Positions 6,389 through 19,088 of a stretch of DNA of 64,000 nucleotides are shown piece after piece. Within the stretch, counting starts at the first letter, position 1. Each line of letters opens with the position of its first letter. This DNA comes from Actinobacteria bacterium casp-actino5 (GTDB lineage Bacteria; Actinomycetota; Acidimicrobiia; Acidimicrobiales; Ilumatobacteraceae). Below the pieces are notes generated by a model. That model saw only the letters and a program-made list of their open reading frames with translations, was not told the DNA's origin and searched no databases. The translations under genes were made by a program, and so were the position numbers. The stretch lies in NCBI GenBank assembly GCA_001510385.1, contig LFFE01000015.1, positions 1 through 64,000 of the forward strand, in the 5' to 3' direction.

Positions 6389-7357
6389 TCAGTGATGGTC
6401 AAATAACCGTCCAACGCGTTCGACGTAGTCGCGCTGGTCCTGCATTTCAAACACGGGAATCATGAATTCACTCAACATGTGAGTCTCAACTAGCTCGGTC
6501 AACTGTGCCCTGCACTCATCCTCAGTGCCATGAATGACGAATGGCAATACCCAGTCATCCGAAACGTATTGTGCCGCAACATGGAGACCATCTGCCATGG
6601 CATTCCGAATTCGCTCGACATCTTCATCTGTCATGCCAATCTGCTCGCGAATGTCAGTTGGAGAGTCGCACAGCCGATACGTCATATGTGGCCGAACGGC
6701 TTCAAGATCGCCGTCGGTCATCACAATAGATGTTGAGTACGACAGGTCGACCGAGTTGCCAGAAATGGCTGCCCCTTTGCGAACGGTGTCAACCGACGCC
6801 GAAAGAGTTGTCTCGTGGAGGAAATCGAGAATCACGCCATCGGCTAACTCACCCCCGAGAGTTAGCACGCGAGGTCCACGTCCAGCCAGCCATATCGGAA
6901 TATCTTGATATGGGCGAGCCATGGTGGCCTGGTGAAGACGCACCGTCTCACCCTCAAAATCAACTTGCTCCCCTGACCACAATCCCCTGCACACTCTGAT
7001 GAGTTCTCGCAGCGACACCACCGGGCGTGAGCGCGACAGGCCAAGTGCGTCGAGAGTGAGGGAGCCACCGGCTCCAAAGCCGGCTACAGCGCGCCCTCCA
7101 CTCAATTCTGCGAGGCTCGCATGGGCGACAGCGGTTTGTCCAGGGTGCCGGGTGAAGGGATTGGTGATTCCAGGGCCCACCAACATGTTCGAGGTCGCTA
7201 AGGCAACCGCACTTGAGACCACATACACATCATGAGTGGCGAGCCCCTCGTCATATAGGCGGCATGTGCTGTAGCCCGAGTTCTCAGCGACTTGAACAAG
7301 TTCGATCACCTCTTCAATGGGGCCATCAGGAATGATGTTTAGCGCTAACGAGACCAC
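6389..7357 (-). CDS. LLM-class (luciferase-like) F420-type oxidoreductase
   Basis: 322 residues with the TIM-barrel pattern of the luciferase-like monooxygenase superfamily: N-terminal LALNIIPDG strand, GPGITNPFTRHP, GFGAGG and the IPIWLAGRGPRVLTLGGE substrate-side loop. In actinobacteria these usually use coenzyme F420, but the cofactor (F420 or FMN) and substrate cannot be read here. It is the last gene of the minus-strand catabolic array. The start is GTG at 7357, with hexamer TAGCGT built on the yqeC stop codon six bases upstream. It converges on the phosphodiesterase gene with 23 bases between stops and no terminator. Confidence 0.82.
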   Translation of the reverse strand: MVSLALNIIPDGPIEEVIELVQVAENSGYSTCRLYDEGLATHDVYVVSSAVALATSNMLVGPGITNPFTRHPGQTAVAHASLAELSGGRAVAGFGAGGSLTLDALGLSRSRPVVSLRELIRVCRGLWSGEQVDFEGETVRLHQATMARPYQDIPIWLAGRGPRVLTLGGELADGVILDFLHETTLSASVDTVRKGAAISGNSVDLSYSTSIVMTDGDLEAVRPHMTYRLCDSPTDIREQIGMTDEDVERIRNAMADGLHVAAQYVSDDWVLPFVIHGTEDECRAQLTELVETHMLSEFMIPVFEMQDQRDYVERVGRLFDHH

Positions 7358-7363
7358 ACCGAA

Positions 7364-7369
7364 ACGCTA
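7364..7369 (-). promoter_or_regulatory. Leaderless -10 hexamer TAGCGT overlapping the yqeC stop codon
   Basis: On the minus strand TAGCGT is followed by six bases and the GTG of the LLM gene at 7357. The first three bases of the hexamer are the TAG stop of yqeC. The distance fits transcription beginning on the GTG. Confidence 0.55.
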
Positions 7370-8098
7370 CTTAACCTGTTCGAATTCAATCAATACGACT
7401 TCGTGGCTAGGGGTGAGGGCGTCTACCAATTCTTCAACCAAGTGAAATGTGGTCTGGTCTTCCTCTTGCAACGGTACTTTGGTGATGACGACTACTTTTC
7501 GGGCGTCTGCCGCACACCCCTTGAACGAACCATGCGGTGACGAAAGAACCGTTGCAGCTCGAGCCGGCGTGAGGCGTTCGTAGGGGCTGCAGCCAGCGAC
7601 TGCTGCGACTCTCAACGGACGATGGCATTGATCAGCAATGACTCGGCCGAGTGCGTCGGCTCCGATGACTGAGAGAACAGTCGTAGTCTGAACGGGAAGC
7701 ACCGGCTCGAAGTTCGCAGGGGCTTTGAATGGCCGATGTCGAGCACCATCGGCCTCAACGAGAACGAAATCGCAGAGAGAGTCGTCGCTAAACCATTCGT
7801 CGCAGACAGATGGAGGCACGCCGATGGACTTGTGTCCTTTGACTCCAGAGCGAACGAACACCGGTGAACTTCCGTTCCACGACGCAAGGGGTTGCTCAAA
7901 CGGTGCTTCGATCACGTCAAGATTTCCCGTTTGGTGCTCCCCCATCTTGGTTGTTGTCGTCACGATCGTGCGCCTGTTCATCGTCTGCGCGAGCTGAAAC
8001 AACAGGGTTGATTTGCCTCCTCCTCCGACGAGCGCAAGAAGTTCCCGCCGATCAAGATTGAGGGCAGTAGCCAGTCTCCCGCTCGGGATGGGGATCAT
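7367..8098 (-). CDS. yqeC: Selenium-dependent hydroxylase accessory protein YqeC
   Basis: 243 residues with an N-terminal P-loop GGGGKST (25-31), a TTTTKMG segment near 47 and LVEADGARHRPFKAP near 113. These fit the YqeC family of NTP-binding proteins. Comparative genomics by others associates this family, with YqeB, with selenium-dependent molybdenum hydroxylases; the biochemical step is unresolved to my knowledge. The ATG at 8098 overlaps the yqeB stop by four bases. Next to XdhD-like and XdhC-like genes, it supports a Se-dependent molybdenum enzyme, although no selenium donor genes lie in the window. Confidence 0.85.
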   Translation of the reverse strand: MIPIPSGRLATALNLDRRELLALVGGGGKSTLLFQLAQTMNRRTIVTTTTKMGEHQTGNLDVIEAPFEQPLASWNGSSPVFVRSGVKGHKSIGVPPSVCDEWFSDDSLCDFVLVEADGARHRPFKAPANFEPVLPVQTTTVLSVIGADALGRVIADQCHRPLRVAAVAGCSPYERLTPARAATVLSSPHGSFKGCAADARKVVVITKVPLQEEDQTTFHLVEELVDALTPSHEVVLIEFEQVK

Positions 8099-8913
8099 GA
8101 CCTGGTGCTCAGCCGGTGCAACGCTTCAACGACTCCCCCACCAACTGCGAGCGCTTTATCAGAAATCTGAACGCACGCCTCTGGGTCGTGTCGGGGGTCA
8201 ATATCGGCAATCTTCAGCCCTACAGAGACCTGCGAACCGGGAGCGATAAGTCCTCGCACCATTCCAGTAAATGGCGCATGGACATGCATTGATGTCTCCC
8301 CGGCGACTTCGCCAAGCACCGTTCCCTCTTTGACAAAGTCACCTATTTCTGACGACCACGTTATGCAACCACGCAAGGGTGCCCGTATGACTCTCTCTGC
8401 AGATTTCCCTTCGATTTCGCCGGGGCTCCCAGTATTGGGCTCAGCCATGCCTGAAAACAGGGCTCGTCCAAGGCGATGACCTCGCATCGTCTCTATGACG
8501 GCATGGCAGTGCGTTCCAACTGAAAACCCTGGACCGAGTGCAATCACGATTTCAGCGTCGTTCATCGATGAATCGAGAGGCTGTTTTGCAAGTCGGCAGT
8601 CAATGATGCTGCTCATTGGCTGTGACATCGGCACATCACCAATCGTTGGTGCGACGACAACCGGAATTTCGCCGAGGTTCCAACACGTGCGAACCGATTG
8701 TTCATCATCGCATCGCCGAGCAGCGAGACCCTCGATATCGATATGACCTGATGTGACCGCTGAAGAAACCGCGACCGTGCGACGAATGGTGAGCGGATGA
8801 GGAAGCTCAGCTACGAGCACTCGGAATCCGGCGTGGTGGAGCCGCCACACCACGCCAGTTGCGATATCTCCACCGCCTCTAACAAGGACGATCTCATCTG
8901 GTGCTGGTTGCAC
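8095..8913 (-). CDS. yqeB: Selenium-dependent molybdenum hydroxylase maturation protein YqeB (EF2563 family)
   Basis: 272 residues from the GTG at 8913, chosen because GAGG lies six bases before it and the product then begins just ahead of LVRGGGDIATGV, as in the family. A longer TTG start at 8943 has no ribosome-binding site. The N-terminal half has a Rossmann-like glycine motif; the middle has ALGPGFSVGTHCHAVIE and PNTG; the C-terminal half resembles a lipoyl or biotinyl-like barrel (FVKEGTVLGEVAG). The family is used as a genomic marker of selenium-dependent molybdenum hydroxylases. It overlaps the XdhC-like gene by 20 bases. Confidence 0.85.
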   Translation of the reverse strand: MQPAPDEIVLVRGGGDIATGVVWRLHHAGFRVLVAELPHPLTIRRTVAVSSAVTSGHIDIEGLAARRCDDEQSVRTCWNLGEIPVVVAPTIGDVPMSQPMSSIIDCRLAKQPLDSSMNDAEIVIALGPGFSVGTHCHAVIETMRGHRLGRALFSGMAEPNTGSPGEIEGKSAERVIRAPLRGCITWSSEIGDFVKEGTVLGEVAGETSMHVHAPFTGMVRGLIAPGSQVSVGLKIADIDPRHDPEACVQISDKALAVGGGVVEALHRLSTRS

Positions 8914-9664
8914 GAACGACCTCAGCCATGATGCTGATCGCAATCTGCTCAGGAGTTTCGGCGCCGATTTCTAGACCGATCGGCGTGGAAACTCTCGCGA
9001 TCTCATTTTCATTGCATCCTGCATTGAGCAGAAGTTCTTTTGTTGTCGACCATCTGCGAGCACTGCCCATTAGGCCGATGTAAGCCGCAGGTTGCTTCAC
9101 GACGGCGGGGATGAGTTCAACATCAAGAGGAACGTTCCGGGTGACCATCACGATGGCTGATCGCGCGTCGAGGGGAATGTCGACAAGGGCCTGAGTCAGC
9201 TCTCCACTGTAGGAATGAACAGCGTCATCGAATACCTCGAGCTGCTCGGGTCGGTCGTCCCAGATATGAACGTCCCATCCGCTCCATTGCGCAAGCTCGC
9301 AGACGGCACGTCCAACATGACCTGCTCCGATGATGAGAAGTGATGCGGTATTCATATATGGCTCAACGTAGACGTCCATCTCGCCTCCGCACACACCAGG
9401 ATCTCCAGTGGAGGGGTCGACGAGCCGATATGACAGCAAGCGAGGTTGGCCATCAGACATTGCATCAAGTGCAACATCAACCACTCTCGATTCCATTTCG
9501 CCCCCGCCAACGGTTCCCGTCCGGCTTCCATCGTCGCGAATGAGCATTGCTGCACCTATCCGGCGAGGAACCGATCGGTCAGTGCGGACAACTGTCGCTA
9601 TTGCTGCTTTGCCGCCGGCTGAAGCGGCGTTGAGCGCCAGTCGAATCAGGTCTAACGACCCCAT
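8894..9664 (-). CDS. xdhC: XdhC/CoxI family molybdenum-cofactor insertion chaperone
   Basis: 256 residues. The N-terminal XdhC/CoxI domain has the signature SVPRRIGAAM near residue 31 and GTVGGGEME near 50, then PGVCGGEMDVYVEP. The C-terminal Rossmann domain has IIGAGHVGRAV near 113, YIGLMGSARR and PIGLEIGAETPEQIAISI. XdhC proteins bind sulfurated molybdenum cofactor and deliver it to xanthine dehydrogenase-type apoenzymes; this one has the usual two-domain form. It sits between yqeB and the SsnA-like gene, overlapping the latter by 13 bases. The likely client is the XdhD-like subunit, or both hydroxylases of the window. Confidence 0.88.
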   Translation of the reverse strand: MGSLDLIRLALNAASAGGKAAIATVVRTDRSVPRRIGAAMLIRDDGSRTGTVGGGEMESRVVDVALDAMSDGQPRLLSYRLVDPSTGDPGVCGGEMDVYVEPYMNTASLLIIGAGHVGRAVCELAQWSGWDVHIWDDRPEQLEVFDDAVHSYSGELTQALVDIPLDARSAIVMVTRNVPLDVELIPAVVKQPAAYIGLMGSARRWSTTKELLLNAGCNENEIARVSTPIGLEIGAETPEQIAISIMAEVVRATSTR

Positions 9665-10956
9665 AGCCGACCCGCTTCCTCATTCACCCGGGCACGTGCT
9701 CGCTCAACATCAATTCCGAGAACTTCGCCATTTCGCACGCGCCACTGTCCGTCAACCATGACATCGCGAACATGGTGACCACTTCTCCACAGCACAAGTT
9801 GGTCAGCGATAGTGGAAGCATCAATCGGTGTGGGCAAGTCAAGGTTGACAACTTGAAGATCGGCAATCCAGCCAGGCTCAAGGCGACCCAGATTTTTTAT
9901 CCCTAGTGCTGCAGCTCCACCTTCGGTCGCCATGTGCAGAACCTGGTGTGCCGGCGTTGTCGATGGATCAAGCCGCCGTGCCTTCTGCAGCCAGAATGCG
10001 CCGCGCATGACCTCGTACATGTCATTGACATACCCATCTGACCCGAGACCAACTGTGACATCCCTGTCGAGGAGGTCAGCGATTGGCGCAATTCCTCCAC
10101 CCACCTCGCAGTTCGATAGTGGCATGTGGCTGACTCGAGTCCCACTCGTTGAGATGACCTCAAGCTCATCATCAGTCATCTGCACACACTGACTTGCGAG
10201 AAACGATGAACTCGCTATTCCGATATCTCTGTAGAAGGCCATCGTGTCAGCACCCAGGTTCTCTCGGGCCCAGTTTCCCTCGTGTATTCCCTCGTTGCAA
10301 TGTGCGTGGAACCACGTGTTGCGAGCCAGCGCTTCATTCGCCGCTCGTTCAATAAATGACCGAGAGCATGTGAACACGGTGTGCCATGACATTGCTCCAG
10401 AGACCAACGAGTCGTGTTGGTGCTGATCGATGAAGTCAAGATTCTCGAGAAGCGAGAGTTCAGCGATTTCTGCTCCCGCGCGCTCGGTGGCCTCGAAGCT
10501 GAAAATTCCTCGAATGCCAGCGAGACGGGACTGTTCCGCTTCTGCTTCGAGTACCCCACTAAGTGCTCCAGGTGCCTCACATATGTCGAAGAAGGTGGTT
10601 GTTCCGGTCCGCAACATTTCGGCACTGACCCAAGCCGACGCTGCTGAGATCATCTGGCGGTCGAGCCTGTCCTCAACTTGGGGCCACCAGTAGTCATCGA
10701 GAAAGCTTGCGAATCCAGTTGGAGGCGATTCGATGACTATTCCGTGCGCGAGGGTTCCGTATAGATGCACATGTGAATTGACAAACCCTGGCAGCACTGC
10801 GCACCCCGCAGCCTCGACCACTTCATCATCAGGAAATTCGGCGATGAGTGCCGCCGAACTGCCAGTTGCGTGTACTAGGCCATCATGAATACGGATTGCT
10901 GCCGATCGCTCAACCTGTTCAGCAGAGATCAACAGCCAGTCGGGACAAATAATCAT
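9652..10956 (-). CDS. SsnA-like amidohydrolase with an altered active site
   Basis: 434 residues, AtzA/SsnA-type amidohydrolase. Metal motif HVH at 62 and 64, WFHAHCNEG with H219 and E222, and GSDG with D307. The FEATER and DMYEVMRGAF segments resemble E. coli SsnA, which as I recall lies beside xdhD and ygfM; this gene likewise follows the XdhD-like gene with an ATGA overlap. Oddity: the strand-6 histidine, seen as LAHAVW in the paralogue at 14621-15994, is here ASQCVQ, giving Gln256. This could mean a changed reaction or loss of deaminase activity. Substrate unknown; a purine-derived compound is inferred from context. Confidence 0.82.
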   Translation of the reverse strand: MIICPDWLLISAEQVERSAAIRIHDGLVHATGSSAALIAEFPDDEVVEAAGCAVLPGFVNSHVHLYGTLAHGIVIESPPTGFASFLDDYWWPQVEDRLDRQMISAASAWVSAEMLRTGTTTFFDICEAPGALSGVLEAEAEQSRLAGIRGIFSFEATERAGAEIAELSLLENLDFIDQHQHDSLVSGAMSWHTVFTCSRSFIERAANEALARNTWFHAHCNEGIHEGNWARENLGADTMAFYRDIGIASSSFLASQCVQMTDDELEVISTSGTRVSHMPLSNCEVGGGIAPIADLLDRDVTVGLGSDGYVNDMYEVMRGAFWLQKARRLDPSTTPAHQVLHMATEGGAAALGIKNLGRLEPGWIADLQVVNLDLPTPIDASTIADQLVLWRSGHHVRDVMVDGQWRVRNGEVLGIDVERARARVNEEAGRLWGR

Positions 10957-13907
10957 TGCTGTGACTGGTTAACGGCTGAATTCATTGCCCGCCACACCCG
11001 CTCTGGTGTGAATGGAAGCTCGTTAATTGAGACTCCGACAGCGTTCTGAATAGCGTGGCGCAGGGCGGGTGCGACTCCGTCCTTGGGAATTTCCGCAACG
11101 GCCTTGGCGCCAAATGGTCCACTGTCTTCCATCGTCTGAACGAGGTAGACAGCTGTCTCGGGCATTTCATCGGCTCGATAGATGTGGTACGGGCCGAAGG
11201 AGTCATTGAGCATTTTGCCATTCTCATCAAAGGCGTATTCTTCGCAATGCGCGTATCCCAACGCTTGCAACATTCCGCCTTCGACCTGGCCGGACGCAGT
11301 GACAGGGTTAATGGCAACACCGCAATCGACCGCCATTGCCATCTTCATAATGGTGACCTGGCCAGTATCGACATCGACTTCAATCTCGATCACTTGTGCG
11401 GCGAAGGGTGGAGGGCACTCAGGAGACACGTACGAGGCGGTGCCCATTATTTGCTCCTGCTCCTGGGTGTGAAGTGAGTCGAGGGCAATGTCCTCCATTG
11501 AAACTGAGCGGCCGTCGGGAGCGTACGCGCGACGATCCCGTAACTCAATCGAACAAGGTTGTTCAACCCCGAGCAGCATCGCTGCGCGCTCTTTAATCCG
11601 TTCACGCGCCACTTCGGCAGCTCGGAGTGCAGCGGTGCCGGAGATATACGTGGTCGATGACGCGTAAGCCCCGGTGTCGAAAGGCGTCATGTCGGTGTCG
11701 CTTGAGTACACCTTGATGTCGTCAAGGTGTACTCCAAGAACCTCAGCCGCAATTTGGCCGAGAACCGTGTCGGCACCGGTACCGAGATCGGTGGCGCCAA
11801 CAAGCATATTGAACGAGCCATCATCATTCAGTTTGATTGAGCAGCCGCCCATATCGAGGAAAGGAATTGCAGTTCCATGCATGCAGTACGCAAACCCAAG
11901 ACCTCGCCGAATATTCGGTCGATCGGCTGGCTGTCGCCACTCGGGATCGTCACGGCGGTGCCAGCCAATCTCACGAAGTGCTTGAGCGACGCACTCCTCT
12001 AGGCCTGTTGACAGCACACGTGGGTACTCGTCAAGTTCTTCGTCGCTTGCGGCACGTTCACCGAGATGCGGAGCGATATTAAGTTCATCGCCAAGTCGCA
12101 ACCAGTTTTTGCGCTTGAACTCAATCGAGTCGTATCCAAGTTGTGCCGCGATGTCGTCCATATGGGCTTCGAGCGCAAATTCTGCTTGAGGTGCTCCATA
12201 ACCTCGGTATGCGCCCGGAACCGGAATGTTCGTGTAGACAACGTCGCAGCGGAAGCGTTTGTTTGGGGCGTTGTATTGGGTGAGTCCACGCAATCCGGCA
12301 ACTGTCTGCACGGTGTAGCCGTGGGTGCCGTAAGGGCCCGTATTTCCAATGATGTAAAGATCTTGAGAGACGAGTTTGCCGTCGCTGTCGACCACAGTGG
12401 TGAAGGTGAGTGTCTGCGGGTGGCGAGTTCGACTGCCGATGAACTCCTCTGACCGATCGAGTTCTAGCCGGACCGGGCGACGTGTCGCTTGAGCGAGATG
12501 TCCAACAATGTCCTCGATCAACATCTCTTGTTTGGCGCCAAATCCCCCGCCGATACGGGGCTTAACGACCCTGATGTCTTTGATATCGCGATCGAGGAGC
12601 GGTGCCACCATGCGGCGAGCATGAAATGGCACTTGGGTTGCTGTTCGAATGACGAGACGCTCGTCCTCGTCGAGCCATGCGATCGAAATATGGGGCTCAA
12701 TTGGGCACTGTTGAACCTGATGAACTCGGAAGGTTTGGGTGAATACGTGATGACCGTTGTCGTGCGCACGTTTGACTGCCTCATCTGGATCATTGCGGCG
12801 AGCGGTTATGTGATGGACGATATTGCGGTCACGGTTATGGATTTCGAGTGTGTCGGGCTCGTCATGAATGACAACTGCACCGTCTGCCATTGAGTCTCGT
12901 TCATCAAAAATGGCTGGAAGCAATTCATAGCTGACATCGATGAGCGAACAAGCATGCGCAGCGATTTCGGGAGTTTCCGCTGCAACCACCGCTACACGAT
13001 CTCCGACATGGCGAACTTTGTCGTCAAAACTCACTTGATCGTGAGGATGAGGATTTGGCCACGATTGCCCACCCGAGGCGTATTTGATACGTGGTGTGTT
13101 CTTATAGTGCAATACCTCGTGGACGCCGGGAAGTTGACGTGCTGCAGCGTCATCAATGTCAAGAATTCGCGCATGCGCGTGCGGGCTTCGAAGAACCTTT
13201 GCATAGAGCATGTTACGAAGCTCAATGTCATCGGTGAAGGCAGGATTTCCTTTTGCGAGTCGAACGGCGTCCACCTTGATCTCAGGCTTTCCAACAACTG
13301 CCATTTCTGGCACATCCTTCGAGGGAATAAGTCGCGGCACCGCGGCAGGGGCAGAAGGTGGGTTGTCGCTCGGGTCGTGCTCAACTGGTTCGCCCTGTTG
13401 AGTAAGAGAAGGCAGAATGACGGGAGTGAAAGGAGCAGTCTGTTCCCCTCGCAGAACTGCTGCCGCTCGATGTATCGCCTCAACCGGCTTTACGTAAGCC
13501 GTTTCTCGGTCGAGAATTCCTGACAGCATGTCGCGGATTTGTTCATCGGTAGGTGATGGATGCTCCTCGAGTAGCGCAAGAGCCCCAAGCACCATCGCAC
13601 CGGCCGAATATCCCGATTGGAACGCGCCCGTAGCAACAAACGCTGCCTGAATCGGGTGCAGCTCGGGGCTGGTGTTTAACGACTCAACCGTCGTGATGGT
13701 GTGCCCGTTGGCCTGGGCAGCAAGGATGACGTCGCTACTGGCGAGGCGACCGTCAAAGAGCACAGCAGCAGCCCCGGTCTCGCCGCTATCCGATCCGTAG
13801 TGGACACTAAACATTCCTTGAGAACGAAGGAATGTTCTCAGCGTGTCATGCGGTTCGATTTGCCCGGTGACAACGCGGCCATTGAGGGTGATGGTGATCG
13901 GAATCAT
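10953..13907 (-). CDS. XdhD-like molybdenum hydroxylase with degenerate iron-sulfur domain
   Basis: 984 residues. Residues 1-165 align in layout with the two-domain [2Fe-2S] module of xanthine dehydrogenases, but all eight cluster cysteine positions are other residues (for example SGETGAAAVL and QSGYSAGA). The molybdopterin-binding part follows (about 210-975): LRSPHAHARILDID, QQCPIEPH, GGGFGAKQ, GAYRGYGAPQ, DLGTGADT, and GPFGAKAVAEI with the presumed catalytic glutamate. Length and pattern match E. coli XdhD, which as I recall is also cysteine-free in this domain. It overlaps the FAD-subunit gene and the SsnA-like gene by four bases each. Substrate unknown; a purine or related heterocycle is inferred. 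Confidence 0.85.
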   Translation of the reverse strand: MIPITITLNGRVVTGQIEPHDTLRTFLRSQGMFSVHYGSDSGETGAAAVLFDGRLASSDVILAAQANGHTITTVESLNTSPELHPIQAAFVATGAFQSGYSAGAMVLGALALLEEHPSPTDEQIRDMLSGILDRETAYVKPVEAIHRAAAVLRGEQTAPFTPVILPSLTQQGEPVEHDPSDNPPSAPAAVPRLIPSKDVPEMAVVGKPEIKVDAVRLAKGNPAFTDDIELRNMLYAKVLRSPHAHARILDIDDAAARQLPGVHEVLHYKNTPRIKYASGGQSWPNPHPHDQVSFDDKVRHVGDRVAVVAAETPEIAAHACSLIDVSYELLPAIFDERDSMADGAVVIHDEPDTLEIHNRDRNIVHHITARRNDPDEAVKRAHDNGHHVFTQTFRVHQVQQCPIEPHISIAWLDEDERLVIRTATQVPFHARRMVAPLLDRDIKDIRVVKPRIGGGFGAKQEMLIEDIVGHLAQATRRPVRLELDRSEEFIGSRTRHPQTLTFTTVVDSDGKLVSQDLYIIGNTGPYGTHGYTVQTVAGLRGLTQYNAPNKRFRCDVVYTNIPVPGAYRGYGAPQAEFALEAHMDDIAAQLGYDSIEFKRKNWLRLGDELNIAPHLGERAASDEELDEYPRVLSTGLEECVAQALREIGWHRRDDPEWRQPADRPNIRRGLGFAYCMHGTAIPFLDMGGCSIKLNDDGSFNMLVGATDLGTGADTVLGQIAAEVLGVHLDDIKVYSSDTDMTPFDTGAYASSTTYISGTAALRAAEVARERIKERAAMLLGVEQPCSIELRDRRAYAPDGRSVSMEDIALDSLHTQEQEQIMGTASYVSPECPPPFAAQVIEIEVDVDTGQVTIMKMAMAVDCGVAINPVTASGQVEGGMLQALGYAHCEEYAFDENGKMLNDSFGPYHIYRADEMPETAVYLVQTMEDSGPFGAKAVAEIPKDGVAPALRHAIQNAVGVSINELPFTPERVWRAMNSAVNQSQQ

Positions 13908-14611
13908 GACAACGCTCCGAGCACTCGTTGGCTAAGTTTCACTGCCAAGTGGTGGCGGTATTCGCTACTTCCCCGAAAATCGCTGAACGGTATGAGTTGC
14001 TCCACCTCGTCTAGTGACCGAGCCAACTCAGGAACGGAAGAAACACCAGTAATGGCGAGGATGGGCCCGCTGCTAGAACGCCGACCAGCTACCGCCACGA
14101 TCGGAGTATCCATCGGAGTTCGACCGGTGTGTTCGAACGCCCAGTCTGTCGACGTGTGTAGTTCAACTGTTGTGATGAGCCCGCTTGGCGATCGCAGAAA
14201 CTCATCAAGAGGAGTCGATTTGCCATCAGCCGTCGTCACCGTTGCAGAGGAAGCGAGTAGTGCAGCCAACAACAGGCTTTCTTGACCCGCTGCTGCGACT
14301 GCTCCTCCAATAGTGCCGATCGTTCTCAGCGTTGACGGCAACTCCCTTCGTGCAGCCACACCAAGTAAGTCGTGAGGAAAGGTGTGCTCAATATCCGCCA
14401 CTCGAACCATCGCTCCAATGGAGGCGGAAGAGCCCTCGAACTGGATGTTGTTGAGGCCGAGGGATTGAAGATCAACTCCCACATATCCTGACCGGTGACG
14501 ATCAGCGTTGATCACTGTCCCACCAGCGAGTGGAATGTGTTGGGGCTGACTCAGCAGGGCTACTGCCTCGTCTAAGGTCTCAGGTCGATGGTATCCAGCA
14601 AGTAGCGGCAC
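13904..14611 (-). CDS. YgfM-like FAD-binding subunit of molybdenum hydroxylase
   Basis: 235 residues, shorter than the usual 280-300 of CoxM-type subunits but near E. coli YgfM. The N-terminal half has the FAD-binding signature AGGTVINA near residue 28, IGAMVRVAD near 66 and TIGGAVAAAGQESLLL near 99. The C-terminal CO-dehydrogenase flavoprotein domain is short. It starts with GTG at 14611, nine bases after the preceding stop, and overlaps the XdhD-like gene as ATGA, so the two subunits are probably made together. A TAATTT hexamer overlapping the upstream stop codon gives it a possible promoter of its own. Confidence 0.82.
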   Translation of the reverse strand: MPLLAGYHRPETLDEAVALLSQPQHIPLAGGTVINADRHRSGYVGVDLQSLGLNNIQFEGSSASIGAMVRVADIEHTFPHDLLGVAARRELPSTLRTIGTIGGAVAAAGQESLLLAALLASSATVTTADGKSTPLDEFLRSPSGLITTVELHTSTDWAFEHTGRTPMDTPIVAVAGRRSSSGPILAITGVSSVPELARSLDEVEQLIPFSDFRGSSEYRHHLAVKLSQRVLGALS

Positions 14612-14617
14612 AATTCC

Positions 14618-14623
14618 AAATTA
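14618..14623 (-). promoter_or_regulatory. Leaderless -10 hexamer TAATTT overlapping an amidohydrolase stop codon
   Basis: TAATTT on the minus strand, then six bases, then the GTG of the YgfM-like gene at 14611. The TAA of the upstream amidohydrolase forms the first half of the hexamer. Confidence 0.55.
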
Positions 14624-15994
14624 GCCGAGCCGAGACCGAATCCCTGCCCGCTGGAATAGCGATGCTGCTGCTGCCTTGGCTGATGCAATGACTTCCGAAG
14701 AATTTACTGCTCGATGAAAGCCATTTCTAATGACGGGCTCACCTTGAACAAAGACATCGCGGACCTGTTGCGGTGAGCAGTTAAAGACGAGCGCACTGGG
14801 TATCCGGTGAACTGGCGCAACGGCTGGGTGGTCGAGATTGACGATGACGAGGTCAGCGGCACGACCAACTTCTATCCGACCGAGTCGATCGGGCTCACCA
14901 AATGCTCGTGCTCCACCAGCGCATGCCATTTCGATTGCGTCTTCAGGTTGAAGAGCCATGGCGTTGAGATGGTGAACCTTCTGAAGGAGAACGGACATTT
15001 TCATTGCTTCGAAGAGGTCCTGTCGATTATTTGAGCCCGACCCGTCACTTGCAAGAGCAACCGTGATACCGAGTTCACGCATCTCAAGAATTCGAGCTAC
15101 GCCTGACGCCAGATACATATTTGAGACCGGGCAGTGCACCACGACCGAGTCGGCTTGCGCAATCGATTGCAACTCGTCGTCGTCGAGCCACACAGCGTGT
15201 GCGAGTTGAACGTCCGAAGCGAGGGAGCCAACACTTTCCAACCATGGGACATGCCGCAAACCTCTCTCAGAGATGCTCATCTCGACCTCCACAGCAGTTT
15301 CTGCGCAGTGAACGTGAGTACCGCGACCCCACGACCGAGCAGCCTCAATCGTTTCAACCATTGCTTCGTCGGAACAACCCCATGGGATAAGTGGACCAAG
15401 TTCGATCTTGATTCTGCCCTCGTGGCCATCCCAACGATCGAATGTTTGCTTTGCTCTACGAATCGCGGTTGCAGAATCCTCGACGAGCGGCTCATGGTAA
15501 TTGCGATCCGCCCAGCCGTGAGCAAGAAGAAGTCGTAATCCGAGTTCATCCGCAGCTCGGCACACCGCATCGTCAATGAGGTCGCCATCGATGCCGGGGT
15601 GGACATATTGGTGATCGATAACACTCGTACATCCGCTCATTAAGTTCTCGAGCAGACCAATGCGAGCCGCGTGATACGCGATGTCGGGAGTTATGTGTTC
15701 AGCCGCAGGCCAGATGCACTCTCGTAACCAATCGAGAAGTGGTCGGTCATCTGCAAGACCTCTAAAAAACGACTGGAAGAGATGTGTGTGCGCATTTGTC
15801 ATCCCCGGCATGACGGCGCAGCCAGCAGCTGAGACCACTTCGTCGACCGAAGTCTCCAATGCTGAAGGCGACTCGCCTCTACCGATGTCAGTAATGACAC
15901 CATTGGTGATCAAAATCCAACCCGGGTCGAGCACGTCGTGATCTTGGTTGACGGTGACAATTGCTCCACCATGAATAAGTCTCGTGTTACTCAT
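14621..15994 (-). CDS. AtzA/TrzF-type amidohydrolase (8-oxoguanine deaminase-like)
   Basis: 457 residues from the ATG at 15994, which overlaps the upstream LLM stop by eight bases. A longer in-frame start at 16039 would overlap far more and adds an atypical leader. Full metal site: NAHTHL near 73, HVHCAE near 242, LAHAVW near 280 and ASDGSG near 332. This set and the [15 protein letters not shown] segment resemble hydrolases that deaminate 8-oxoguanine or other purine and triazine rings. Substrate is inferred only from family and from neighbouring xanthine-dehydrogenase-like genes. It is followed after nine bases by the YgfM-like gene. Confidence 0.82.
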
Positions 15995-17015
15995 GTGGCG
16001 CCCAGTGAGCAAAGGCATCAATAACTGGCTTGATGTCATCCATCATTGGATACAAAATCGGACACGTCACTCCCGCGTCGATGTACTCGGCAACTTTCTC
16101 TTGGCACTCGCGGGTGGTTCCGACCGCCATGAGTGAACGAACTAAATCATCTGGGATGAGGTGTGCTGCTTTTCGGTAATCGGCTTCTGTTGCCGGCCAA
16201 CCAACAACCTCCTTCACTCTCTTCACAAGATCTGGGTCCGCTCCACTTGCCTCCATGATGTGAGGCTCGGTACCGAGGTAATACGCGACGAGCGACTTTC
16301 CGGTAAGTAATGCCTCTTGCGGGTCATCATCTGAAAGTGAGCACACGAGGAGCTCAGGGCGATCTACTTGTTCGATCGTTTTACCGGCGCGTTGAGCACC
16401 CGTTTCAACTCGTTTAACCGCTGAGCGGATGTAGTCAGTTGAGACGACATAGTTAAGAACAACGCCGTCACAGGTCTCCCCTGTGAGTTCAAGCATTTTT
16501 GGACCTGTTGCGCCGATGTAGATCGGAATGTTTCTCGGAGAGGCATCTCCATATGCGACATCAAGTCGTACACGATCAAGTTGAACGATCTCACCCTCGT
16601 AGGTGACTTCCTCCATAGTGAACAATGCACGCAGTGCCTCAACGTGCTCGCGCATCGCTCGTAGTGGAAGTCGACGATTCTCACCAACACGGCTCGCAAT
16701 TGGCTCCCACCATGCGCCAATGCCGCACATCACACGACTTTCACCTTCTACGAGACCACCCAGTTCCCACATGGTGCTCCAGGTTGCTGCGATGACTGCC
16801 GGGTTGCGGGTCCAAATGGGCAACACACCTGATCCGATTCGCAGGCGCTTTGTCTCGGTGAGCAGAGCACTCATCAAGACGACGCAGTCTCGTGCGAGGC
16901 GAGTGTCGGCCTGCCAGATTTCAGAGAACCCCTTCGACTCCGCATACTTCGCCATTTCAATTTCGTAGGCGATTGGGTGTTTGTCTTGGAGGTATAGGGC
17001 CATGCGTTGAGCCAT
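15987..17015 (-). CDS. LLM-class F420-type oxidoreductase (second copy type)
   Basis: 342 residues. Luciferase-like TIM barrel: [19 protein letters not shown] start, [42 protein letters not shown] and [18 protein letters not shown], as in methylenetetrahydromethanopterin reductase-like F420 enzymes. Only distantly similar to the other LLM gene at 6389-7357, so not a recent duplicate. Cofactor and substrate are not proven. Its ATG follows the CodA-like gene by ten bases and is preceded by a TAGTCT hexamer overlapping that gene's stop codon. It overlaps the downstream amidohydrolase by eight bases. Confidence 0.84.
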
Positions 17016-17022
17016 GGCGCCG

Positions 17023-17028
17023 AGACTA
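17023..17028 (-). promoter_or_regulatory. Leaderless -10 hexamer TAGTCT overlapping the CodA-like stop codon
   Basis: TAGTCT on the minus strand, seven bases, then the ATG of the LLM gene at 17015. The TAG is also the stop codon of the CodA-like gene (17026-17028). Confidence 0.55.
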
Positions 17029-18270
17029 CGGGATTACCGGCGGCAACTCACTTATTACCGATGTTCGAGCAACAACTCGTCCACCCTTCATGACGATTCG
17101 ATCGGCTGGTGCCTCGGCAATTGCCTGACGGGTCGAACCTGCCCGCACGGCAAGGAGGTCTGCGGGTTGGCCAACTTCGATCGAGACTTCAGGCATCCCG
17201 AGGGCTTTTCGTGGATTAGAGGAAATTGTTGCAAACGCGTCGATTGGGAGCATGTGGCCTGCCATCACCATCAAGGCAGCTGTCTCGAATGGATCGTTCC
17301 TTCCCACAAAGTTGAAGGGATCTTGGGCGTTGTCCGCACCGGCCACGAGGTTCACTCCGGCTGCCAGCAACGCATGAATGGCGGTGAGACCTCGAGGTGT
17401 CGCCACCGGGTCGTCGCGCCCTTGTAGAAACAGGTTGGTTTGTGGCAACGCAACGATGGAGACTTCCGCTGCGGCGACGTTCTCGGCGAGCGACTGAACC
17501 TGATCGACGGGAAGCATTCCGAGGCTCACGCAGTGACTTGCGGTGGTCAAAATCCCAGAGCCACGCGAGTATCGAACGACATCATTGATCGTCAGCGCTG
17601 TGGGGTCGAGAGTCTCATCAACATGCAGATCAACTTTGCATTGATGGCGCTCAGCGAGTTCGAACACTTTCGAAACACACGAGCCAGAATCAGGCTCGAG
17701 GTGAGGGCACCCACCGATGACCTCCACTCCTAGTTCGATTGCGTCGTTGAGTGCCGTGAGGTTGATGTCACTCCCCTCGCCGCTCATCGGCATGTACGTC
17801 AGTGCAACAAACTCAATGTCCATACGCTGCCTGAACGTTGCTGCGGCTTCGATAGCGGCGACGAGGTAACGGGTCGAGACCGGTCCACCAACATTGATGT
17901 GACTTCGAACCGCAGTGACCCCGCTTGCGAGCAACATCTCCAGTGAGCGGCGGATTCGAGCAACCATTTCTTCGTGACCAATTACTCCCGCAGCTTCAGC
18001 GTCTCGCCACCCATGGATTGCCCCCATCAAGTCGCCCTTCGGGTTAGGTACGACGTCCGCGGTGAGCGATTTGTCGAGATGTGCATGAGGTTCGACTAAT
18101 GAGGGGACTATCAGACGTCCATCGAGATCAATGTGATTGACGTTCTCACTCGAGACATCACCTACTCGCTCCGATACCTCAATGATGCGACCATCGCGAT
18201 CAACAAGGATGTGTGGTGTTGAGCCATCCTCGAGGAAGCCGCCGGAGATAAGGGTTCGAGGTTGGGTCAT
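17026..18270 (-). CDS. CodA-like amidohydrolase (cytosine deaminase family)
   Basis: 414 residues. Motifs of the cytosine deaminase group: [13 protein letters not shown] near residue 60 with the HxHxDK pattern, the DLHVDET metal-histidine segment near 212, TASHCVSLG near 242 and [12 protein letters not shown] near 310 with the metal aspartate. The order fits CodA-type enzymes that deaminate cytosine, isoguanine or creatinine-like rings; exact substrate unknown. It is the first gene of the minus-strand array and starts at an ATG 35 bases from the divergent creatininase ATG, with a near-ideal leaderless -10. Confidence 0.85.
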
Positions 18271-18298: not shown

Positions 18299-18305
18299 CA
18301 TGGTT

Positions 18306-19088
18306 ATGAACGCGAACGAAAGCCGTCGATACGCCGACATCGTAGGTCCAGACATTGGTGATGTCATTTCAGAAGAATCCATCATCGTGTTGCCGGTCGG
18401 AGCCGTCGAGCAGCACGGCCCGCACTTGCCAATGTCGGTCGACGACGTCATCGCGACTGAAACGACGACTGAGGTCGTGCGACGGTTCGGTGGCGATCTT
18501 GATCTGTGGCAACTGCCCTCGCTATCGATATCGAAGTCAAATGAGCACGCCTGGAGTGCAGGCACTCTGTGGTATTCGGCTGAGACCATGATGTCGGTGC
18601 TGCACGACATCGGCCGTTCAATTTCAACTACTCAGGCCGAGCGACTTGTGCTCCTCAACGGCCATGGCGGTAACACCACGTTGCTCAACACCGCGTTACG
18701 CGAACTTCGGCTGGCGTTCGGACTGAAGACGTTCCTTGTTCATCCATCCCTCCCTCCTGCTTACGGGGGCTCGTCCACCGAAGATGAGTTGGGAATGGGT
18801 ATTCACGGCGGCCTTAACGAAACGTCAGTGTTTATGCATCTTCGTCCTGAACTTGTCGATCTCAGTCGCGCAGAACGAAAGGTTCCTGAGGCGTTAGACC
18901 AGAATCAACATGTGAAGTTCGGAGGGTCGGTTGCGTTCGGTTGGCTGTCGAACGACTTCGATGAGGCTGGCTATATCGGTGATCCGACAGGAGCGAACGC
19001 TGAGCGTGGCGCCGAGTTGTTCAATCATGCGGTCGAACGCATTGGTGAGCAGATGGCGGAAATCCGGGAATTCAATTTTGGCCGATGA
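18306..19088 (+). CDS. Creatininase-family amidohydrolase
   Basis: 260 residues from the ATG at 18306; the ATG at 18300 is the alternative. Creatininase/MftE-type metal hydrolase fold: VGAVEQHGPHLPM near residue 32 with metal ligands E and H, DDVIATE, NEHAWSAGTLWYS near 80 and NGHGGN near 118. The family includes creatininase, 3-dehydro-scyllo-inosose hydrolase, the FAPy deformylase ArfB and the mycofactocin peptidase MftE. A role in ring opening or amide hydrolysis of the same heterocyclic pathway as the divergent CodA-like gene is inferred from position. Substrate unknown. Confidence 0.85.
   Translation: MNANESRRYADIVGPDIGDVISEESIIVLPVGAVEQHGPHLPMSVDDVIATETTTEVVRRFGGDLDLWQLPSLSISKSNEHAWSAGTLWYSAETMMSVLHDIGRSISTTQAERLVLLNGHGGNTTLLNTALRELRLAFGLKTFLVHPSLPPAYGGSSTEDELGMGIHGGLNETSVFMHLRPELVDLSRAERKVPEALDQNQHVKFGGSVAFGWLSNDFDEAGYIGDPTGANAERGAELFNHAVERIGEQMAEIREFNFGR

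Follow-up and report, generated by a model that had tools for sequence, protein, structure and literature searches.

Escherichia coli SsnA, the nearest characterised relative of the amidohydrolase studied here, works on the products of reductive urate metabolism. In passages of Li et al. 2025 (PMC12507026), urate is reduced with NADH to yanthine (2,8-dioxopurine) by E. coli XdhD with a co-purifying protein presumed to be YgfM, and YgfK together with SsnA converts yanthine to ureidomethyl-hydantoin and 5-ureido-dihydrouracil. In the same passages SsnA (b2879) is a ring-opening hydrolase on a reduced oxopurine, not a deaminase, and E606 of XdhD is a likely urate-orienting residue in a Boltz-1 model. 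In Chloroflexota a luciferase-family F420-type enzyme stands alongside SsnA in place of YgfK, and in C. difficile UacX adjoins SsnA (passages of PMC12507026). A commentary, in the part covered here, gives the same reductive outline for urate (PMC12990295).

For subtype III of the amidohydrolase superfamily, a passage of PMC12828455 describes an Asp that takes a proton from the metal-bound water and a bridging His that passes the proton to a Glu, and it calls this Asp-His-Glu relay highly conserved. Activity was undetectable in the His249Ala variant of AtzC, according to a passage of PMC4577212. In passages of PMC4356373, TrzN His274 hydrogen-bonds the zinc-bound water, while AtzA His276 binds the metal.

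A glutamine fixed in a sister clade of SsnA

The window, which is the whole stretch of 64,000 nucleotides that was analysed, encodes P0001, an amidohydrolase of 434 amino acids, at 9652-10956 on the minus strand. The first-pass annotation had claimed that Gln256 replaces the strand-6 histidine of this SsnA-like protein, and the translation confirmed it. Residue 256, at the usual strand-6 His position, is Gln, encoded by CAG within the segment SSSFLASQCVQMTDDELEV (core letters LASQCVQMTDDEL). The neighbouring segments that had been quoted for comparison were also correct, as P0002 (14621-16039, minus strand) has His at the matching place and the CodA-like P0003 has TASHCVS. H62, H64, H219, E222 and D307, the ligands said to remain, were all there. 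The features of P0001 are as follows.

9652-10956, minus strand: SsnA-like amidohydrolase of the Gln clade (P0001, 434 aa), from translation, profile scores, tree and AlphaFold2
10765-10773, minus strand: H62-V-H64, metal ligands on strand 1, from sequence and clade alignment
10744-10746, minus strand: His71, clade-specific, from clade comparison
10576-10578, minus strand: Glu127, clade-invariant, directly after strand 119-126, from the model and clade comparison
10291-10302, minus strand: metal ligand H219 and E222 (HxxE), strand 5, from sequence and clade alignment
10189-10191, minus strand: Gln256 codon (CAG), end of barrel strand 6, where SsnA and other relatives have His, from the model and alignment
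10105-10107, minus strand: Glu284, clade-invariant, where the helix that follows strand 274-277 ends, from the model and clade comparison
10036-10038, minus strand: D307, metal ligand or base on strand 8, from sequence and clade alignment

An AlphaFold2 model built on 17 sequences (mean pLDDT 94.4) placed Gln256 as the final residue of strand 252-256, at the C-terminal end of strand 6, which is the site of the catalytic His in relatives. The barrel fold is supported by this confidence score and by Foldseek TM values of about 0.9. The closest solved structures were methylthioadenosine/S-adenosylhomocysteine-type deaminases (4f0r, TM 0.91, 25% identity), and all five aligned PDB relatives have His opposite Gln256. 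Thus P0001 holds the subtype III set (HxH, His, Asp and the HxxE Glu) and lacks the strand-6 relay His. It is 26% identical to E. coli SsnA.

We compared relatives from four overlapping genome searches, which covered 61 relatives, 395 genomes of the class, 301 of Chloroflexota (the phylum of an Anaerolineales genome) and 268 of the order. The loci examined, to which the His and Gln counts apply, were the best matches of each search, at most 30 per search. Clade members were the listed matches above a score gap, which in the Chloroflexota search separated 418 bits or more from 315 bits or less. Gln256 was present in 39 of 39 members (the window protein and 38 loci), which span two phyla and reach down to 38% identity. 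Ser255, Glu127 and Glu284 were likewise found in all 39, H219, E222 and D307 in all members, and His71, H62 and H64 in every member that covers these positions, which two loci do not. The 38 loci include the partial L011 and L212 and are counted with duplicates merged: L033 to L038 are the same as L005, L007, L008, L006, L009 and L011, L040 is L012, L039 is L057, and L200, L201, L203 and L204 repeat earlier loci. Outside the clade, His occupied the column in 40/40 fetched loci and then in 34/34 further covering loci; L096, a non-clade locus, does not cover the column. Among 30 loci, the codon for Gln256 was CAG 17 times and CAA 13 times, a count that holds one gene twice (L039/L057) and precedes the last nine loci added to the clade.

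Comparison of P0001 with five genus mates gave dN values of 0.12-0.16 and dS values that were either saturated or no lower than 2.8; a closer pair (L007/L008) gave a dN of 0.035 and a dS of 0.448. These values indicate that purifying selection acts on the gene, and we conclude that selection keeps the glutamine. A Gln present in 39 of 39 members, written with two codons, in a gene with dN far below dS, is at odds with sequencing error, private mutation or decay; we found nothing in favour of such an origin, reject it, and allow it practically no probability. The first-pass annotation had argued for a preserved sequence rather than simple decay, and selection and the invariant ligands bear this out. 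It had also proposed aligning SsnA-type relatives near XdhD genes, and a His in near relatives sharing that context would have counted against it; Gln was fixed throughout the clade. A Gln-clade profile run against 299 Pseudomonadota genomes at 1e-75 gave 0 matches, an empty result that is uninformative since the run had no positive control.

A 73-row tree held 23 Gln proteins, which formed one branch with an SH-aLRT support of 100; His-type SsnA (SsnA-H, 29 rows including E. coli SsnA) formed its own branch with a support of 99, and the two were joined at 100 with 21 other amidohydrolases outside; this tree was made by a quick method with no bootstrap and a midpoint root, and its E. coli rows are long. 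It sampled 28 His-type and 19 other fetched loci along with E. coli SsnA, E. coli GuaD and P0002. P0001 scored 252.5 bits against NF005540 (cut-off 444) and 238.6 bits against TIGR03314 (cut-off 455.5), and because it falls below both curated SsnA cut-offs we do not count it as an SsnA. On sequence grounds, P0001 is a sister of SsnA, not a member, and belongs to a separate old clade that we call SsnA-Q. A single His-to-Gln change on the clade stem is sufficient to account for the distribution in this tree.

Other residues set the clade apart as well. In a comparison of 27 His-type and 18 other loci, again with E. coli SsnA, E. coli GuaD and P0002, column 256 was Gln in 29/29 clade rows and His in 28/28 SsnA-H and 20/20 other rows; fetched His-type and other loci left out of the tree and of this comparison all have His at 256. 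Column 71 was His in 29/29 clade rows and Arg in 28/28 SsnA-H and 19/20 others, and H71 is the sole invariant His specific to the Gln clade. Column 127 was an invariant Glu in the clade and Ala in 28/28 SsnA-H rows, and column 284 an invariant Glu in the clade and Asn in 26/28 SsnA-H rows. By AlphaFold2 secondary structure, positions 71, 127 and 284 come after strands 1, 2 and 7, and the post-strand side of this fold carries the active site. The co-changed residues look like remodelling, not decay. Separately, the protein at L198 (6745-8031, genome G810) has His256 and Arg71 but Glu127, and it adjoins the Gln clade with a support of 89 on a long branch; its sequence makes it a possible Gln/His intermediate.

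Gene context and a molybdenum subunit without cluster cysteines

The gene for P0001 lies in an operon in the order CodA-like, LLM1, deaminase-like P0002, FAD-subunit-like, XdhD-like, SsnA-Q, XdhC-like, YqeB, YqeC and LLM2, and it overlaps the XdhD-like gene by 4 bases. The other members are listed here.

17026-18270, minus strand: CodA-like cytosine-deaminase-family protein (P0003), below cut-off
15987-17015, minus strand: LLM1, luciferase-like oxidoreductase (P0007), F420-type by below-cut-off matches
14621-16039, minus strand: amidohydrolase with the strand-6 His (P0002), best matches all below cut-off
13904-14611, minus strand: FAD-binding-subunit-like protein (P0006, YgfM-like), below NCBIfam cut-offs
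10953-13907, minus strand: XdhD-like molybdenum subunit fused to a cluster-less [2Fe-2S] domain (P0004, 984 aa), with a Glu that aligns with E606
8894-9664, minus strand: XdhC-like Mo-cofactor maturation protein (P0005), below NCBIfam cut-offs
8095-8943, minus strand: YqeB, above the TIGR03309 cut-off
7367-8098, minus strand: YqeC, above the TIGR03172 cut-off
6389-7357, minus strand: LLM2, second luciferase-like oxidoreductase (P0010), F420-type by below-cut-off matches

The best matches of P0002 were 5'-deoxyadenosine deaminase, N-ethylammeline chlorohydrolase and 8-oxoguanine deaminase, all below cut-off. Among the ten operon and ten flanking proteins of the window, we found no HyuA, YgeW, YgeY or YgeX. 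A creatininase-family gene (18300-19088, plus strand; MftE-like below cut-off) has its divergent start about 30 bases from the operon, and genes for a phosphoesterase and for ABC transporters follow it.

We looked at wide regions around 14 of the 30 Gln loci from actinobacteria (L102, L103 continued in L104, L105-L115, and L161), three of which (L110, L114 and L115) are short on one side at a contig end. An XdhD-like gene, 69-93% identical, adjoined the SsnA-Q gene in all 14, with a gap of about 2.5 kb in L115, and the link to a hydroxylase gene suggested by the first-pass annotation therefore held across these regions. LLM1 was present in 11 of the 14 and LLM2 in 12, although the LLM2 of L108 is a match of only 39%, on the other strand and about 11 kb off. 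E. coli YgfK had no match in the 14 regions, where the LLM genes are found instead. Among relatives, the P0006-type FAD subunit diverges much faster (42-67% identity) than the adjoining XdhD-like protein (73-93% over its length).

P0004 carries none of the eight [2Fe-2S] cluster cysteines in its N-terminal domain (13443-13907, minus strand), and the same is true of eight relatives, across which the fused domain is nonetheless retained and well conserved. E. coli XdhD (L052, 9317-12187) is likewise without all eight. In 25 Chloroflexota XdhD homologs (L163-L187, one of them the gene of L158), both clusters were missing in 4, one of which (L166) retains one cysteine, cluster I alone was missing in 12 and cluster II alone in 1; all eight ligands were present in 4, and another 4 had seven with one a residue away. 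From these sequences, cluster loss looks repeated or stepwise. The same loss in E. coli XdhD and in four of the Chloroflexota homologs led us to reject the idea that it is peculiar to the window operon. NADH serves as the reductant for E. coli XdhD-YgfM, which means that electrons would have to get to Mo without these clusters; the main text of PMC12507026 nowhere uses the word cysteine.

In the XdhD-like proteins of the Gln regions, the column of E. coli XdhD E606 holds a Glu. This Glu is a weak marker of the XdhD type because the cysteine-bearing XDH-like protein of L160 has it too, a finding that slightly lowered our confidence in the ring-opening reading proposed below. In the window genome, selD is over its cut-off (G000:C11:56959-57864), and YqeB and YqeC also pass curated cut-offs; as all three pass, a P0004-type Mo enzyme may carry a selenium-type cofactor.

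Five of the genomes examined carry both a Gln-type and a His-type SsnA (the window genome, G338, G406, G788 and G967). The His-type protein of the window genome falls in the SsnA-H clade, scores 251.9 bits, below cut-off, and comes from a short frame of 353 amino acids with a short N-terminus. Its locus (L101, 13865-18142, G000:C6) encodes AllC (allantoate-amidohydrolase)-like, carbamoylase-like, SsnA-like and LLM1-like proteins, and LLM1 of the window is 49% identical to the luciferase-like protein that adjoins this His-type SsnA. In G338 (L161) and G406 (L109), the Gln-type cluster has a divergently oriented His-type cluster next to it, one that includes a cysteine-bearing XDH, and the XDH of G406 has no Glu at the E606 column. 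The two types of enzyme coexist, perhaps for different substrates or steps.

The Chloroflexota Gln loci have more varied neighbours. A gene like PreA and dihydroorotate dehydrogenase adjoins three of the eight (L155, L156 and L157). Against NF006183 (cut-off 335) the products of L155 and L157 scored 185 and 147.5 bits, both below, and the L156 protein is 38% identical to its L157 counterpart. These neighbours belong to PF01180, the family of UacX. L157 also encodes XDH subunits (FeS, whose cysteines are present, FAD and Mo), together with a hydantoinase-like protein, a PucR-like regulator and a YgeY that passes two NCBIfam cut-offs (411.7 against 321, and 387 against 321.5). By BLAST, 7 of 8 Chloroflexota Gln regions had no XdhD-like match nearby, L157 having its separate XDH, and we rejected the idea that Gln is tied to XdhD partnership alone, since most of these members lack such a match. 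In G788, about 18 kb separate the Gln gene from an XdhD-like gene that lacks the cysteines. In a non-exhaustive BLAST with operon and E. coli proteins, L150, L151, L152 and L154 gave no pathway partner, and L153 gave only XdhC-like and FAD-like genes, 2-6 kb off on the other strand. A ring-reducing-type oxidoreductase with an XdhD-type neighbour was thus not found for five of the eight Chloroflexota loci, which counts against a strict pathway link. At L155 (1993-7758) and L156 (4184-9838), SsnA-Q is near aldehyde-ferredoxin-oxidoreductase-family genes, joined in L155 by a UbiD-like decarboxylase, neighbours hinting at other heterocycles or aromatic acids.

A proposed ring-opening role and its rivals

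The first-pass annotation started from the idea of a deaminase, a premise that finds no support in the passages of PMC12507026 on E. coli SsnA, which opens the ring of a reduced oxopurine. Its suggestion that the protein may catalyse a different step stands in part, in that a non-deamination step fits. This step needs no special effect of Gln, because E. coli SsnA, with its His, is itself ring-opening in that source.

We hypothesize, with confidence somewhat above even, that SsnA-Q is an active metal-dependent ring-opening hydrolase without an Asp-His-Glu relay, which in the window serves an F420-linked XdhD route. The partner reductase would first remove the aromaticity of a nitrogen heterocycle and SsnA-Q would then open the ring. 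In the window, P0004 would be a dehydroxylase and the F420-type LLM enzyme a ring reductase, and the substrate would most likely be a dihydro-oxopurine on a route of the urate-to-yanthine type. It may differ from that of SsnA, because five genomes also have a His-type SsnA. The usual relay cannot run because residue 256 is Gln. Instead, Asp307 would activate the metal-bound water, Glu222 would protonate the leaving nitrogen, and Gln256 would hydrogen-bond the water or the oxyanion, replacing Asp-to-Glu proton transfer; Asp307 and Glu222 acting separately could serve the opening of an amide ring. The data show the fixed Gln, the clade, the selection, the ligands and the gene context; that the enzyme is active, what it acts on, whether F420 is used and what Gln256, His71, Glu127 and Glu284 do is our inference. 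An active hydrolase is favoured by Gln256 in 39/39 members with the ligands kept, in one clade, under purifying selection and with both codons. A role in a ring-opening pathway is favoured by the XdhD-like gene in 14/14 regions, LLM1 in 11/14, LLM2 in 12/14 and the E606-type Glu, and also by the PreA-like neighbours in L155-L157 and, in L157, the XDH, hydantoinase-like, PucR-like and YgeY genes. The need for the relay His in relatives weighs against an active hydrolase, as seen with AtzC His249Ala in the passage of PMC4577212. Against the pathway role stand the five Chloroflexota regions with little or no sign of partner genes, and the absence of HyuA, YgeW, YgeY and YgeX from the operon and flanking proteins of the window.

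It is also conceivable, though unlikely, that the metal site has been kept for a changed chemistry, such as tautomerisation, ring closure or elimination on the product of the XdhD and LLM enzymes. The change at 256 is accompanied by the clade-fixed H71, E127 and E284 after other strands, and a His-type SsnA coexists in the five genomes, both of which would suit such a shift, but E222 and D307 are invariant and the neighbours are like those of SsnA, including reductase-like, hydantoinase-like and YgeY genes in L157. We consider it still less probable that His71 or the new acidic residues restore the relay and leave the mechanism in effect unchanged. His71 is the only invariant clade-specific His (29/29) and changed on the same stem as 256; against its acting in a relay, it follows helix 65-70 after strand 1 in the AlphaFold2 model, and the AtzA pocket residues given in a passage of PMC4356373 include none at seven residues after the second ligand His.

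The first-pass annotation had further proposed pure substrate binding or partnership with the hydroxylase. A pseudoenzyme that binds substrate or serves as a structural partner of the Mo subunit could explain the 4-base overlap with the XdhD-like gene and their adjacency in 14/14 wide actinobacterial regions. The metal ligands and Glu222 are invariant wherever covered, which disfavours both forms of that proposal, and the 7 of 8 Chloroflexota regions without a nearby XdhD-like match speak against a partner-only role; we assign a pseudoenzyme little probability. Returning to the active ring-opening hydrolase, we put forward as a tentative possibility, held with clearly less confidence than the hydrolase itself, the joint reading of a relay-free Gln clade in an F420-linked reductive purine route whose Mo dehydroxylase has lost both FeS clusters, all under strong selection.

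If this joint reading is true, two textbook devices, one catalytic and one redox, have been dropped in one operon while the pathway is still strongly selected. The clade may also point to reductive purine clusters of a second, F420-linked type. A natural relay-less clade and an SsnA with an assigned reaction make a clean pair for probing the need for the histidine, and the question they pose is whether His serves deamination as against the opening of a cyclic amide. We regard SsnA-Q as a stable variant with chemistry that merits testing, and recognising the clade would help to fix automatic annotations of "deaminase" or "chlorohydrolase".

Comparison with known systems

In the titles, abstracts and passages covered, with few subscription papers among them, we found no description of the Gln clade or of a missing strand-6 His, and none of cluster-less XDH relatives. 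Within this literature, the SsnA-Q clade is without a published description.

The AHS subtype III deaminases (the MTA/SAH enzymes 4f0r and 4dyk, AtzC, CodA, AtzA and TrzN) share the fold and the mononuclear ligand set with P0001. The five aligned PDB relatives have His at the position, whereas the relay is broken in P0001. The Chloroflexota F420-type SsnA clusters, as described in passages of PMC12507026, resemble the window operon in that a luciferase-family oxidoreductase adjoins the hydrolase. The published family there is IPR017700, whereas the LLM proteins of the Gln clade fall below the related NCBIfam cut-offs, and the window carries two LLM genes, a CodA-like gene and a deaminase-like gene.

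SsnA is the closest comparison. The P0001 clade differs from it in having Gln256 for His, His71 for Arg, Glu127 for Ala and Glu284 mostly for Asn; P0001 is 26% identical to it and below both curated cut-offs, and YgfK is without a match in the 14 wide regions. The P0001 clade is nevertheless the sister of SsnA in the tree, has the same HxH/H/HxxE/D ligands, and, like SsnA, is found near XdhD-like genes and ring-reducing-type oxidoreductases.
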